A DNA stretch of 23,815 nucleotides, taken from positions 1-23,815 of IMG/VR virus record IMGVR_UViG_3300034374_006330, one strand, 5' to 3'. The notes under the pieces are model-generated. The model did not search any database. It saw only the letters and a list, made by a program, of their open reading frames with translations, and was not told the DNA's origin. Shown here one piece after another: positions 1 to 15,915 of this stretch; within the stretch, counting starts at the first letter, position 1; each line of letters begins with the position of its first letter. The stretch is from a virus. Both the position numbers and the translations under genes were made by a program.

Positions 1-1332
1 GCGCTGGGCCTGCTCGCCTGTGTCTAGGGGTGGACCCACCAGGCACAGCACCCTGGCGCGCGTTCCTGCGTCATTACTGAACGCGGTTAGCCGCTGCTCG
101 CCACTGGATACCAGCCAGCTGCGCCACATCCCCACAGGCCGCTGCGCCACACTGCGTGCACCCTGGCCTGGTGCCCCTCGCACTGCCCCAGCACCCGTTG
201 ATAGCATGTAGACCATAGAGGCCACATCCTCTGCCCTGCGGGCATTCTTTGAATCGTCCAGAATCACAGGCAGATGCCGCAGGGTGGTGGCATGCGCCTC
301 CAGCCCTGCAGGGCTGACCTTCCAGGAGCGCATGCCACCATGCTGGCTGGGCTGCCCATAGACGCTGGCAGCCACCCGCTGGATGGTGGTCTTGCCCCTG
401 CTCGTTTCTCCGCTCCAGTCGATGCCATAGCAGCCACTGACCTGCAGAGGCTCCAGCAGGATGCTGCCCACAGCTGCATAGATGGCCAGCCACAGCCCAT
501 GGCAGTCTGCGCCCACTGCCACAGCATCCAGCCAGCCCTGCCAGCTGCCTGCAGTGCCATAGGCGTCTGCCAGCTGCTGCAGCGCCAAATCATCCAGCAG
601 CCGCACCGCCTGCCCGCTGCCCAGCCAGCTCCTGCCTATCAGGCAGCCCCCAGGCATCCAGCCCATGCGCGCTGCACAGCGCTCCACAGGCACACCCACT
701 GCGCCAGCCTCCAGATAGCCCACCAGGTCACGAGCAGAGGCACTGGACACTGGCAGCCCATGCCTGCCTGCCAGGCCCAGCACTCCCCTGGCATCGATGC
801 AGGCCCCATAGGGTGCCACAGCCTCTGCCCATGCCCCACCTACCTGCTGCCACAGCAGCCGCAGATAGTGGCCACCCCCATCCACATCTACCAGATACCC
901 CACCACATAGATGGGCCTGCGGGCCACCCTGTGCAGGCGTCCGTCTGCATCCACCTGCCAGACGCCAGCGCCATCCACCTGATAGCCCTGCGGCACACTG
1001 CCAGCGCCTGCAGGTGGCTGCCAATCGTCTGGCCTGGCCACCCGCAGGTGCGCAGCTGCCCGCTCTAGCCGGTCGCACACATCCCCACAGCCCCGATGGC
1101 TGCGCAGCACAGCCATGGTGGCTGCCCACTGGTCTGGGTCATGCCTCCTGGCCCAGCGGCACAGCTCCAGCCTGGCAGGGTCTGCCAGCACTGCAGCCAA
1201 AACCCCCACCCTGGTCTGGGTGCCATCTGCTAGCTCTAGCTCGTCTGCCATCTGCTGCAGGAGCTGCCTGGCCTCTGCCAGCCGCACATCAGGTGCCCTG
1301 CCCAGCGCCTGGGCTAGCTGCTCGTCATTCAT
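1..1332 (-). CDS. DUF927 helicase-like ATPase, partial (3' end beyond the left edge)
   Basis: The reading frame is open from the ATG at 1332 to base 1, giving 444 residues with no stop, so the C-terminus is missing. Residues about 115-250 follow the DUF927 pattern (GYQVDGAGVW, then GLPVSSASARDLVGYL, then ARMGWMPGG). A P-loop GETSRGKTT lies at about 308-316, followed by VYGQP and a Walker B-like LPVILDD at 354-360. DUF927 proteins are NTPases found beside primases in phages and plasmids, where they probably act as the replicative helicase or loader; that role is known by association and is inferred here. The start is set by an ATGA overlap with the upstream gene. The four-gene leftward operon also holds a primase. 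The body of the gene is poor in CpG, unlike the gene just upstream. I am confident of the family and less so of the exact activity. Confidence 0.85.
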   Translation of the reverse strand, partial: MNDEQLAQALGRAPDVRLAEARQLLQQMADELELADGTQTRVGVLAAVLADPARLELCRWARRHDPDQWAATMAVLRSHRGCGDVCDRLERAAAHLRVARPDDWQPPAGAGSVPQGYQVDGAGVWQVDADGRLHRVARRPIYVVGYLVDVDGGGHYLRLLWQQVGGAWAEAVAPYGACIDARGVLGLAGRHGLPVSSASARDLVGYLEAGAVGVPVERCAARMGWMPGGCLIGRSWLGSGQAVRLLDDLALQQLADAYGTAGSWQGWLDAVAVGADCHGLWLAIYAAVGSILLEPLQVSGCYGIDWSGETSRGKTTIQRVAASVYGQPSQHGGMRSWKVSPAGLEAHATTLRHLPVILDDSKNARRAEDVASMVYMLSTGAGAVRGAPGQGARSVAQRPVGMWRSWLVSSGEQRLTAFSNDAGTRARVLCLVGPPLDTGEQAQR

Positions 1333-1640
1333 GGCGCAGCCTCCAGCGCGGCCACGAGGGCTGCGGCCTCGGTGTCGTGCCGCTCTCCGTCGCTAGCCTC
1401 GATCTGCCATTCGACACTACAGCCGGTCTGGCCATTAGGCACATACCAGCCGATCTCGTCGTGGCAGGCAAAAGCGTTAGGCCAATCCCACGCCTCCCGC
1501 ACCAGCGCCAGCAGACAGCCGACGGTGGCGGGGTCGGAGAGGTCGGGAAGGCCGTACGCCGGCAGCGGCAGAGTCTGCATGCCCGGAGCCCACCGCCAGT
1601 GCTTACAGGCTACGGCGCGTCGGGCTAGGTCGTCATTCAT
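1329..1640 (-). CDS. Small phage 'ABA-sandwich'-like protein, probable recent insertion
   Basis: This encodes 103 residues starting MNDDLARRAVACKHWRW. The layout, with a tryptophan-rich N-terminus, a DPATVGCLLALVREAW helix and a closing DTEAAALVAALEA helix, resembles small proteins common in phage early regions and often annotated as phage ABA sandwich proteins; their function is unknown. The ATG at 1640 overlaps the primase stop (ATGA) and has AAGGGGG upstream, and its own stop overlaps the next start. Its base composition stands out: I counted about 36 CpG in 311 bases, against about 15 in a similar length of the primase gene beside it. A near-identical sequence, TCGTCATTCATG with GGGCTAG just to its left, lies at both ends of the gene, which suggests an insertion at the start codon of the DUF927 gene. 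Confidence 0.7.
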   Translation of the reverse strand: MNDDLARRAVACKHWRWAPGMQTLPLPAYGLPDLSDPATVGCLLALVREAWDWPNAFACHDEIGWYVPNGQTGCSVEWQIEASDGERHDTEAAALVAALEAAP

Positions 1641-2515
1641 GCTGGCACCCCCTTAGTCAGCTCCTGCAGGCTGCCTGCCCAGCCGCAGCTGGCCTGATGA
1701 TTACAGCGTGCCCAGCCTGCTCCAGCTGGCTGCAGCTCCCACCAGACACTAGCGCGCCCACAGGCAGGGCAGGTGGCCTGCCTGGCTCTGTCGCCCATGA
1801 TGCGCGCCCCCACCAGCTCTGCCACCCGCTGCCTGGCCACAGGGTCTGTGCGCAGCTGCTGGGCCAGCTCACTGCGCAGCGCCTCTGGCCTATAGGGTGC
1901 CCGCATCTGCTGCCGCACCTGCTCGATGTGCGCAGCCCTGGCAGCCTCCTGCTCTGCCTGCCTGGCCTCTGCAGCCTCTACGTCAGTGCGAAGGTCTAGC
2001 CAGTCACCGGGCCTGTATCGGGTGCGATGTGGCCCACCAGCGCCCACTGCGGGCAGATAGTATGCCCTCCCAGGGTCTTTACAGGCAGGGTCTGCAGACC
2101 TGACCACATCTGCATGCACTCGCCTCCAGATGCTGCCGCACACCGGGTAGCGCAGAGGGAGCACCAGCCTGCACCGGGGTGCATCTTCTTTGTGGCTCCA
2201 CGTTGTATAGGCCATGGCCTCTGCACCAGGCCACAGCGCTAGTGCATCCTCTAGCGTCTGCCCATCGTCATAGTCGAGCACCAGCGCCCACACATCGAGC
2301 ACAGCAGCGCTGCTGCGGGCCTGCCCCTGCCGCAGCCGATGGGGAGCCCACAGGGGTGCGCTCTGCAGCCGGTCTGCCTTAGTTCCACAGTGTGGCCTAT
2401 AGCGCTGCAGGCTGCGCACCAGGGTCAGCCAGCTGACCTGGCGAGCATGGGGCCTGGGGTCAAGCGTGGATGCGTAGCCGGTCACCCACACTGGCCAGCC
2501 CTCTGCTGTCGCCAC
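1637..2515 (-). CDS. Archaeo-eukaryotic/RepB-type DNA primase with C-terminal zinc ribbon
   Basis: This encodes 292 residues. An acidic motif LVLDYDD (78-84), then TTWSH (104-108), PRCRLVLPLR (113-122) and DPACKDPGRAYYLP (142-155) match the order of metal-binding, nucleotide-binding and basic motifs in AEP/RepB-like prim-pol domains, which make primers for phage and plasmid replication. A charged helical linker (178-245) leads to a zinc ribbon, CPAC at 249-252 with CNHQASC at 271-277, like the template-binding finger of phage primases. The start is a GTG at 2515 inside the end of the upstream small gene, with only a weak ribosome site, so translation is probably coupled. The DUF927 ATPase two genes downstream is the likely helicase partner. 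The primase assignment rests on motif order, not on a database search. Confidence 0.75.
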   Translation of the reverse strand: MATAEGWPVWVTGYASTLDPRPHARQVSWLTLVRSLQRYRPHCGTKADRLQSAPLWAPHRLRQGQARSSAAVLDVWALVLDYDDGQTLEDALALWPGAEAMAYTTWSHKEDAPRCRLVLPLRYPVCGSIWRRVHADVVRSADPACKDPGRAYYLPAVGAGGPHRTRYRPGDWLDLRTDVEAAEARQAEQEAARAAHIEQVRQQMRAPYRPEALRSELAQQLRTDPVARQRVAELVGARIMGDRARQATCPACGRASVWWELQPAGAGWARCNHQASCGWAGSLQELTKGVPA

Positions 2516-2924: not shown

Positions 2925-3529
2925 TCGATGTGCGCACCATCCCTGCTGGCACTGGCATCGATGGCAGCATCCCAGAGAAGTGGAGGCACGGCCTACTAGG
3001 GGCAGACGCTGCCCAGCTGGCGCACCTGTGGCAGCGCAGGGCGCAGCAGCCCTGGACTGCTGAGGTAGTGGCTGTGGGCCTGCACCATGCAGGCCAGACA
3101 GCTGCGCTGCTGACCCGCAGCACAGAAGGAAACCTGCTGCGGCAGCTCGATGGCACCCTCTCTGTAATGGGTGCCACAGGGCTGGCGGCATGGACAGAGG
3201 CACCCCTATGGCATCTGCGGGTGGCCTGCCTGCGCTGGGGCGCTCTAGAGCTGCCACACCTGTGGGCGCTGCTGGAGCGCAGCCCCACAGCCTGGGTGCA
3301 TGCCCTGGATGCCTGCCAGGTGGTCAGCCCTGGCAGCGCAGAGCTGGTGCACCATGCCAGACTGCTGGGCCTGCCTGTGCAGGTCAGCCCTGGCTGCACC
3401 CTGACTGACTGGAGCGATGGCCGCTACGATGCCATCAGAACCCGCAGCAGCAGGGCTGTGGAGCTGATGGCTGCAGTGCTGCAAACCGAACGGGCATGGC
3501 CCATTATTGACCAGTGGAGAGCAGAGTAA
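2909..3529 (+). CDS. Degenerate PolB-type 3'-5' exonuclease-like protein (possibly inactive)
   Basis: This encodes 206 residues. I see the outline of the 'predicted 3'-5' exonuclease related to PolB' family: SLIDVRTIP at 4-12 stands where D-I-E-T-(I/V)-P is expected, EGNLLRQLDGTL at 73-84 matches the usual E..LL..L helix, GATGLAAWTEAPLWHLRVA (88-106) matches the N-G..FDLPVL segment, LLGLPVQ lies at 152-158, and RYDAIRTRSSRAVELMAA at 172-189 matches the final Y..Y...D helix. The metal ligands look lost: E is R in motif I, the FD of motif II is absent, and the last D is S. The gene overlaps ERF by one base, and exonucleases are common partners of annealing proteins. It may be a structural remnant that holds ERF or DNA. 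The family call is a by-eye alignment and is tentative. Confidence 0.55.
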   Translation: MAVSLIDVRTIPAGTGIDGSIPEKWRHGLLGADAAQLAHLWQRRAQQPWTAEVVAVGLHHAGQTAALLTRSTEGNLLRQLDGTLSVMGATGLAAWTEAPLWHLRVACLRWGALELPHLWALLERSPTAWVHALDACQVVSPGSAELVHHARLLGLPVQVSPGCTLTDWSDGRYDAIRTRSSRAVELMAAVLQTERAWPIIDQWRAE

Positions 3530-4215
3530 TGGAAGCGATTAACCTCGGCCACGGTGTGGCAATGTCAGCCAGTCAGGCAGAGCTAGCCGCTGGGCTGCAT
3601 CAGGCGCAGCGCGCCCTGCGCAGCGCGGAAAAGAACCAGACTAACCCACACCTAAGGAACCGATACGCGGACCTAGAAAGCGTCATCACAGCAGGCCGCA
3701 GGGCTATGGCTGATGCGGGCCTATCCCTGACCTGCCACCCTGTGACCACAGATGGCCAGTGCGGTGTGGTCTATGTGCTGGCCCACACCAGTGGGCAGTG
3801 GCGCAGTGGTCAGCTGCTGCTGCCCATGCCGCAGGCGCGTAGCATGCAGGCTGCACAGGCCGCTGGGGCGTGCCTCAGCTATGCCCACAGATATGTGCGG
3901 CAGTGCCTGCTGGGCATCCCCAGCGGAGAGGATACCGATGGGAGCACAGACGAGCCAGCGCCCCAGCCTGGGGTGGACAGGGGCAGTCCAGCTTGGCGGA
4001 AGTGGCAGGCCAGCCTGAGGGAAGGCGAGCACCCCCTGGACTATGACCTCCTGGCCCACTGGTGCCAGGCGCACCAGCGCCCCAGGCCCAGCGCTATGTC
4101 AGCCCACCAGCACAGGCAGCTGGCACAGTGGCTAGACAATGGTGGCAGGGCAGTGGTGCTGCAGTGGAGCACCACCCCGGAAGGGGCAGACTACCTGGCC
4201 ACCCATGCAGAGTAA
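3529..4215 (+). CDS. erf: ERF-family single-strand annealing recombinase
   Basis: This encodes 228 residues from the ATG at 3529, which overlaps the previous stop (TAATG) and follows GGAGA; a GTG at 3514 in frame is less likely. The ERF hallmarks are present: NPHLRNRYADLESVI at 39-53, a middle strand region with VVYVLAHTSGQW (80-91), and AAGACLSYAHRYVRQCLLGI at 111-130 followed by GEDTDG, which equals the family's G....SYA.RY....L.GI....DTDG signature. ERF proteins bind single-stranded DNA ends and promote annealing, used in genome circularisation and repair. The C-terminal part (150-228) is a separate helical region (W..W..SLR, QHRQLAQWL) that is not part of the core. The annealing assignment is strong. 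Confidence 0.9.
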   Translation: MEAINLGHGVAMSASQAELAAGLHQAQRALRSAEKNQTNPHLRNRYADLESVITAGRRAMADAGLSLTCHPVTTDGQCGVVYVLAHTSGQWRSGQLLLPMPQARSMQAAQAAGACLSYAHRYVRQCLLGIPSGEDTDGSTDEPAPQPGVDRGSPAWRKWQASLREGEHPLDYDLLAHWCQAHQRPRPSAMSAHQHRQLAQWLDNGGRAVVLQWSTTPEGADYLATHAE

Positions 4216-4558
4216 GCCCGTGGGAGTCTCTGCCACTGTGAATGACCTTCTGCGCATGGGCAGCCCTGTGTATGATGTGGCCCAGCCTGATGTGCTGCTC
4301 CTGGTGGTGTGCCCTGCCCGCAGGGTGGCTATCAGCACCCTCACAGATGCTGTGCAGGAATACGACCCCAGCTGCACCCAGCTGGCACTGCACCACCCGC
4401 TGGGGCAGGTTCATGCGTGCTGGTATTTGCTGCGGCAGCTCGATGGCACAGCAGGCACACCCACTGCCTATGCCGCAGGGCTGATGCTCTATGCAGCTCA
4501 GGGGCTGCTGTCGTATGACGAGCAGTGCGACCTAGCCCAGATGGTGCACCATGCCTAG
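4205..4558 (+). CDS. Hypothetical protein of the recombination cluster (117 aa)
   Basis: The frame is open further upstream, but the ATG at 4205, which overlaps the end of erf by 11 bases, fits the tight packing of the cluster; the ribosome site is weak, so coupling to erf translation is likely. The protein has a hydrophobic core strand (DVLLLVVCPARRVAI, about residues 29-43) and a C-terminal helical half with HPLGQVHACWYLLRQL and LLSYDEQCDLAQMV. No membrane segment of full length and no catalytic motif are evident. It belongs to no family I recognise. Its place between ERF and DNA-binding proteins suggests a role in early DNA metabolism or its control. Confidence 0.6.
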   Translation: MQSKPVGVSATVNDLLRMGSPVYDVAQPDVLLLVVCPARRVAISTLTDAVQEYDPSCTQLALHHPLGQVHACWYLLRQLDGTAGTPTAYAAGLMLYAAQGLLSYDEQCDLAQMVHHA

Positions 4559-5045
4559 ACTGACAGAGGCACAGGTGCTGGCTGTGATGGATGCAGGGCT
4601 GATGCACGCATCCAGTGTGGCCAGTGTGAGCAGGCATGCCCGCAGAGCTATCCGCCAGGGCTGGATGCCTAATCCAGCCATCTGCCAGCGTTACAGGCTG
4701 CATCCATACCACTGCAGATGGTGGCGCGCGCGCCTAAAGACGCCCAGCAGGGTGGCCCAGCAGAACAGTGGGCTATCCTCTGCGCTGCTGGCTGACCTGC
4801 AGCAGAGCCTGGATGCAGGCACCAGCCCCAGCCAGCTAGAGCAGGTGCACGGTGTACCTGTTCGCTATTTGGTGCTGTCTGGTGCCCTCTGTCGCCTGCC
4901 CAGAGCCTGCACAGCTCCAGACTACCCACTGCGCATGCGGCTGCTGGTAGAGGCTGGCCTAGCGTCCGCAGACCTGGCAGCTGCCATGCGCATTAGCCAG
5001 CGGGCAGCGCGCACCTGGATAGCACGATGCAGATCGAACACATAG
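4551..5045 (+). CDS. Multi-helix-turn-helix DNA-binding protein (164 aa)
   Basis: The ATG at 4551 overlaps the previous stop by eight bases. The protein looks like tandem helix-turn-helix units: residues 5-30 (VLAVMDAGLMHASSVASVSR and on), about 40-62 (ending HCRWWRARLK), 77-105 (LADLQQSLDAGTSPSQLEQ then HGVPVRYLVL) and 128-160 (LRMRLLVEAGLASADLAAAM then SQRAARTWIARCR). The last unit is the best match to a classical helix-turn-helix, with the pattern of a short turn after AAAM and a basic recognition helix. Such arrays occur in transposase N-termini and in phage regulators. No catalytic domain follows, so a regulator or an accessory DNA-binding factor is more likely than a transposase. The assignment is structural inference. 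Confidence 0.65.
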   Translation: MPRLTEAQVLAVMDAGLMHASSVASVSRHARRAIRQGWMPNPAICQRYRLHPYHCRWWRARLKTPSRVAQQNSGLSSALLADLQQSLDAGTSPSQLEQVHGVPVRYLVLSGALCRLPRACTAPDYPLRMRLLVEAGLASADLAAAMRISQRAARTWIARCRSNT

Positions 5046-15417: not shown

Positions 15418-15915
15418 TCAGGCGCGCGTAACGCCGCCTCTGCAGGTTACCGACCAGTCAATCTTATTAGGTTCGTCATTCGACCACTGGCCCCTGGCGC
15501 TGCACTTCGCATAGGTCAGGGTCTGCGTTACGCCATTCGTGGTCAGGGTGGCGATTAGATTAATCATATCAAAATCGTAACCGGACGTATTGGCGTTCGT
15601 GTTACCGCTGAATCCGTTAGTGCGCGCGATGAAATCCCAGGGGTTGCCTGCTGCGTCCGTCACATCAGCAGAGGCCACGCTCTGCATGTAGGTGGAGAAT
15701 GTCAGCTCGATAGGCACCGGCGCACCCCTGCGGCTGCCCAGATAGGTCTGCCCAGCGTAGATGGCAATCTCCTCATAGAGCTGCACCATGCGGTCTGCAG
15801 TCAGGGTGTGGTCTGCATACCCCACAATATCCAGGTCTACAGCCACCCCTGTGCCATCTTCAAACACAAGGGAAGCAAGGTCATACTTAGTCAACGGGAC
15901 AGTGGCAGATGGCAT
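15418..15915 (-). CDS. Major tail protein (165 aa)
   Basis: The ATG at 15915 follows AGGAG by ten bases. The protein is strand-rich with one main helix: LASLVFEDGTGVAVDLDIVG at 13-32, LTADRMVQLYEEIAIYAG at 37-54 and ELTFSTYMQSVASADV at 69-84, followed by YDFDMINLIATLTTNGVTQTL and DWSVTCRGGVTRA. This fits the tube-forming fold of siphoviral major tail proteins, and the gene lies between the tail terminator and the chaperone pair, which is the usual order. Its codon use differs from the CTG/CAG/GCA-heavy neighbours (more CpG codons), as does the capsid gene, in line with high expression. Confidence 0.75.
   Translation of the reverse strand: MPSATVPLTKYDLASLVFEDGTGVAVDLDIVGYADHTLTADRMVQLYEEIAIYAGQTYLGSRRGAPVPIELTFSTYMQSVASADVTDAAGNPWDFIARTNGFSGNTNANTSGYDFDMINLIATLTTNGVTQTLTYAKCSARGQWSNDEPNKIDWSVTCRGGVTRA

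Follow-up and report, generated by a model that had tools for sequence, protein, structure and literature searches.

Several described forms of gene exchange between bacteriophages bear on the locus reported here. In boundary-sequence modular exchange, summarised in PMC3029335, short conserved sequences at phage gene junctions let single genes be swapped by homologous recombination. A moron is recognised when one of two related phages carries an additional gene whose composition is foreign, and the MPME elements of mycobacteriophages (PMC3029335) are very small, hold one gene and are mobile between phage sites. In this work we analyse a window of 23,815 nucleotides (positions 1 to 23,815 of IMG/VR record IMGVR_UViG_3300034374_006330), in which one small gene, hereafter the cassette gene, recalls all three. 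Unlike a boundary module, the cassette has its boundary inside its own last codons, with a Shine-Dalgarno (SD) site and an ATGA overlap, joins unrelated partner genes and is also shuffled internally at conserved segments. Unlike a moron, it is linked to the genes on either side through overlapping stop and start codons, and unlike an MPME it has neither inverted repeats nor a 6-bp addition and, in the cases seen, was inserted at a start codon. A fourth point of comparison is the phage ABA sandwich domain (PF18066), of which 1R7L is presumably a structure: this is likewise a small phage protein, and the model of one family member (from locus L012) aligns weakly to 1R7L, but the family has no sequence match to it. 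We consider it likely that the window gene represents one allele of a mosaic single-gene cassette, which moves between unrelated, uncultured phages, enters at start codons and has its parts exchanged by recombination.

Results

The window is a GC-rich (63.5%) phage record with strongly depleted CpG (observed/expected, o/e, 0.49), and eight of its larger genes, between 6464 and 21860, lack a PHROG match at E 0.01, which makes the phage very divergent. The cassette gene (1329..1640, minus strand, 103 aa) lies between two genes of the same strand, namely a primase-like gene (1637..2515; PHROG primase matches, E 4.5e-10) and a DUF927 primase/helicase gene that is cut by the window end (1..1332; PF06048, E 5.7e-30). 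In isolate phages, two relatives of the DUF927 protein combine primase and helicase in one fused polypeptide, and the two functions are thus adjacent elsewhere as well. An Erf-type single-strand annealing recombinase (3529..4215, plus strand; PF04404, E 3.5e-21; phrog_155, E 1.2e-28) is encoded about 2 kb from the cassette. ATGA overlaps are present at both cassette ends, the one with the DUF927 gene included, and a scan of 1200-1800 limited to consensus promoter types found neither a promoter nor a terminator belonging to the cassette.

An earlier note on this DNA had described a small CpG-rich gene bounded by a short direct repeat, as if placed at a start codon. The repeat is real as a sequence: on the minus strand, the downstream copy at the DUF927 gene start (CATGAATGACGAGCAGCTAGCCC, 1311..1333) consists of GGGCTAG (1311-1317), 4 nt and TCGTCATTCATG (1322-1333), and the upstream copy at the cassette start (CATGAATGACGACCTAGCCC, 1622..1641) of GGGCTAG (1622-1628), 1 nt and TCGTCATTCATG (1630-1641). 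A single gene of 103 codons with 36 CpGs lies between the copies, precisely as had been counted, at 11.6 CpGs per 100 nt against 4.4 in the DUF927 gene and 5.35 in the primase gene, more than twice the density of its flanks as claimed. Joining the flanks at the repeats also behaves as had been predicted, the primase stop remaining at an unchanged codon in an ATGA overlap with the DUF927 start. The primase end AAGGGGGTGCCAGCATGA and the cassette end CTGGAGGCTGCGCCATGA each lead into ATGAATGACGA. Within the last codons of the primase-like gene, AAGGGGG forms the SD site for the cassette, and by inference it was also that of the DUF927 gene before the insertion. The cassette tail itself (CTGGAGGCTGCGCCATGA, codons LEAAP*, 1329..1346, minus strand), delimited from the sequence together with the codon bias of the family, provides the SD site GGAGG, followed by 7 nt and the ATG of the DUF927 gene.

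The composition of the cassette gene sets it apart from the rest of the window. Its CpG o/e is 1.02; the two flanking genes have 0.42 and 0.49, and the window as a whole has 0.49. The comparison of codon use and CpG per gene that had been proposed earlier was carried out by keeping each protein sequence constant and resampling its codons according to the usage of the window; 36 CpGs were observed in the cassette gene where 22.7 were expected (z +3.7), and it alone among the window genes lies above this expectation, with a positive z. Foreign composition of the kind seen in morons (CpG o/e 1.02, z +3.7) is thus a property of this gene. A second gene of near-normal CpG (15418-15915, o/e 0.86) is accounted for by its protein sequence (z -0.5). 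Elsewhere, GC-rich contigs with family members have a CpG o/e of at least 0.78, unlike the window.

Searching IMG/VR with the window protein as query returned 44 loci, and the family was extended to 193 confirmed matches with alignment; a profile made from the initial set recovers 128 distinct proteins from the fetched loci, which are numbered here with the prefix L. The family also occurs on four contigs of bacterial metagenome-assembled genomes, and no member was found in the isolate phage or plasmid collections. With no profile match in Pfam, PHROGs, NCBIfam or PADLOC, and nothing found in a literature search for its motif, this phage gene family is apparently undescribed. Three segments, LARRAVACKHWRWMPGM, PDLSDPATLGCLLALVREAW and TEAEALVAALEAAP, are kept among members, and between them lie two variable parts that differ in length and have no common sequence. 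The search for the same small gene at other loci, suggested in the earlier note, shows the family in many unrelated contexts.

ALEAAP is the C-terminus of 73 of the 128 proteins, and the DNA that typically encodes it (CTGGAGGCYGCGCCATGA) contains an SD site 7 nt 5' of the next gene's ATG; this start codon and the cassette stop overlap as ATGA. Among these 73 tails the codon GAG is used in 72 (55% elsewhere in the genes), CCA in 67 (background 14%) and GCG in 65 (background 39%); the stop is TGA in 71, and an ATGA or GTGA overlap with the next start is present in 69; by comparison, a crude gene call on these contigs gives a 4-nt overlap for about 20% of all adjacent genes on the same strand. 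A search of IMG/VR for the exact 21-nt tail came down to 25 separate sites within the fetched contigs, of which 21 are ends of family members. All 21 are followed by a gene starting in ATGA, and these next genes are mostly unrelated to each other; the coupled genes include DnaB-type helicases, RecT, a DNA methylase and an HNH endonuclease, with DUF927 in the window. The tail is held at the nucleotide level with unrelated genes downstream of it, and the constant junction of the family is the SD and ATGA tail, not the direct repeat. Part of the conserved tail may also serve the last helix of the protein.

As with boundary modules, the conserved 21-nt end sequence is common to different genes, being carried by a few genes unrelated to the family (L001, L029 and L010/L179/L186). 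At L001 (4683-6003) and L124, a different alanine-repeat-rich stretch ends in the same or nearly the same tail, like a shared tag. L010, L179 and L186 have a small gene, MNTWSVPKEW..EALEALEAAP, with the cassette tail, whose neighbours differ within the phage group.

Empty and occupied sites were identified by tracing one upstream gene across 29 loci. In L170 this gene directly precedes the gene MTHAHLTVHQ.., whereas in L162 the two are separated by a cassette, a moron-type presence and absence among other members of the family. The upstream and downstream DNA of these loci is 89.5% and 92.7% identical, both flank matches reach the cassette at ATGA, and no bases are added at the junction. A second such pair, L174 and L176, has flanks that are 87.6% and 94.6% identical, and in L163 and L164 a cassette plus further genes precede the same downstream stretch. 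In L171, L174, L175, L179 and L186, ..RAAP and the cassette's last bases form the end of the upstream gene itself, perhaps a remnant left when a cassette was lost. Replacement of one allele by another is seen in the near-identical phages L123 and L069, which carry different cassettes within a continuous 7.2 kb alignment of 95.7% identity: the flanks are 98-99% identical as far as the start codon, while within the cassette identity is 52% in part 1, 78% in the centre, 48% in part 2 and 100% in the tail. GC content changes stepwise at the gene ends, from surroundings of 37-51% to 62-72% in the cassette (L123, L018, L069); for L123 and L069 the surrounding DNA is at 40-51%.

These sites, the family contexts and the GC steps uphold one part of the earlier claim, namely that a foreign cassette was inserted precisely at a start codon. 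The other part, a direct repeat as its general signature, did not survive: in 83 other members, the match between a cassette's own start and the next start averages 4.73 nt, compared with 4.47 nt when randomly re-paired (P 0.09), and we rejected the repeat as a general mark of insertion. In the window the bare repeat is also not rare, as 20 pairs of identical 12-mers lie less than 400 nt apart. Nevertheless, the cassette and the DUF927 gene are the only pair among 496 gene-start pairs to share 11 leading bases (next best 8), a length unusual in the family and exceeded at L055 only (15 nt). At that locus (4475-4860) the gene after the cassette, MTLAQRAEVE.., is not a family member, and the first 15 nt are common to both. 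The shared start in the window may represent short homology used at entry; alternatively, the cassette may have acquired its first codons from the DUF927 start.

The strongest competing explanation is that the window gene is an ordinary resident of its operon, the repeat reflecting convergence of N-termini (MNDE.LA and MNDD.LA) selected for good translation starts. A match of just 11-12 nt plus 7 nt, the frequency of 12-mer repeats in the window and the lack of a general start repeat in the family are all in keeping with convergence. Nonetheless we regard it as unlikely, given a composition that differs even with the protein controlled for, the many unrelated contexts and empty and occupied sites of the family, and the sharing by both starts of CTA, a minor Leu codon in the window (14%). 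Start-codon insertion is right for the family, and it is very likely to have occurred in the window lineage as well. In IMG/VR, a search for relatives of the primase and DUF927 genes found none, and the predicted empty junction between them is absent; no relative there covers the site, and hence this lineage yielded neither an empty site nor another allele. The contigs related through the terminase (L046-L048, with 100% identity in L047 and L048) stop short of the primase. The two variable parts of the window gene have no match in the other known members, and so no donor was identified.

If the cassette were instead an ultra-small, transposon-like element of the MPME type that recognises its own ends, it would also consist of one small gene that is present or absent between relatives and occurs in many contexts. 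We consider this highly improbable: terminal inverted repeats are absent from the cassette ends in the window, L162 and L123; the junctions of L162 and L170 fit without added bases, with no 6-bp addition of the MPME type; the reading frames fit on both sides; and a transposon has no need for the exchange of inner parts.

This exchange was quantified over 3,403 member pairs, taking parts as alike at 70% or more and unlike at 35% or less. Part 1 is alike and part 2 unlike in 23 pairs, the reverse holds in 12, and both are alike in 11. Among recurrent types, those present in at least two proteins, 11 of 15 for part 1 pair with at least two part-2 types, and 9 of 13 for part 2 with at least two part-1 types. 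At the majority of conserved positions, codon choice is more uniform than in the variable parts, as expected if the conserved segments are exchanged by recombination. Part 2 of L019 and L061 is identical over 114 nt in contigs of 63% and 40% GC; because L061 sits at a contig end (104-454 of the contig), this is not our main evidence. All members come from metagenomes and some are at contig ends (L061, and L159 near an end), and a shuffled look could be produced by assemblies that join different phages at the conserved segments. Such an artefact has very little probability in our view, as the same alleles recur across samples (L019/L020/L021, L007/L008, L029-L032), examples lie in the interior of longer contigs (L123, L018, L067), and the alignment of L123 with L069 is continuous over 7.2 kb. 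Integron-like movement was set aside from sequence alone, the cassette being coding from end to end and leaving no space for an attC-like site.

Structure prediction with AlphaFold gave mean pLDDT values of 86.5 for the window protein and 83.0 for the L012 protein. In both models the conserved segments form three helices with confident scores, and part of the variable stretches forms a low-confidence loop. The predicted architecture is a scaffold of three helices that carries two variable loops. Searches of PDB and BFVD folds gave no firm match (best viral match A0A6J5S0H8, E 0.026), and the window protein model had no match in the fold search. The L012 model aligned with 1R7L over 82 residues at rmsd 4.0 and a Z of 5.2, too low to conclude (next row Z 3.0), and the PF18066 profile matched neither 26 members at E 5 nor a hand-made consensus.

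Discussion

The mobile cassette proposed here would enter an operon precisely at a start codon. The ATGA overlap with the gene upstream would pass to the first codon of the cassette, and the last five cassette codons (LEAAP) would supply a new SD site and ATGA overlap to the displaced gene, so that translation of essential replication genes could continue. ATGA coupling with an SD site inside the upstream gene works in bacteria (PMC6728339), and we infer that the cassette tail couples translation in vivo in this manner. Since the N-terminal segment, centre and tail are alike in DNA, recombination could replace whole alleles or swap the variable parts separately. Phage annealing recombinases are likely agents, as Erf and RecT recombine diverged sequences well (PMC3945230), and the nearby Erf would be the candidate for having moved the window cassette.

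That the family keeps its frame while its variable parts can be exchanged suggests strong selection for diversity, directed against some feature of the host. Given the fixed frame and exchanged loops, and a position often before replication or recombination genes, the models and sequences suggest a binder under diversifying selection, the function we favour though with the odds somewhat against it; what it binds would most likely be a partner that varies, for instance a protein of the host or of a defence system. With similar odds, a pool of combinatorial binder genes may be common to uncultured phages, each with a fixed scaffold, two swappable variable modules and a portable tail for ribosome binding and the start codon, so that any allele can be placed before any early gene. 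If true, this would be a recombination-driven diversification system that employs neither a reverse transcriptase nor an integrase and acts against a varying target in the host or in defence. The junction signal, a coding sequence that doubles as the ribosome site of the next gene, offers a concrete and testable answer for one gene. Cassettes are also found in tandem, joined by ATGA and differing in their variable parts, at L074, L101, L103, L106, L058, L135, L076, L102, L090 and L041.
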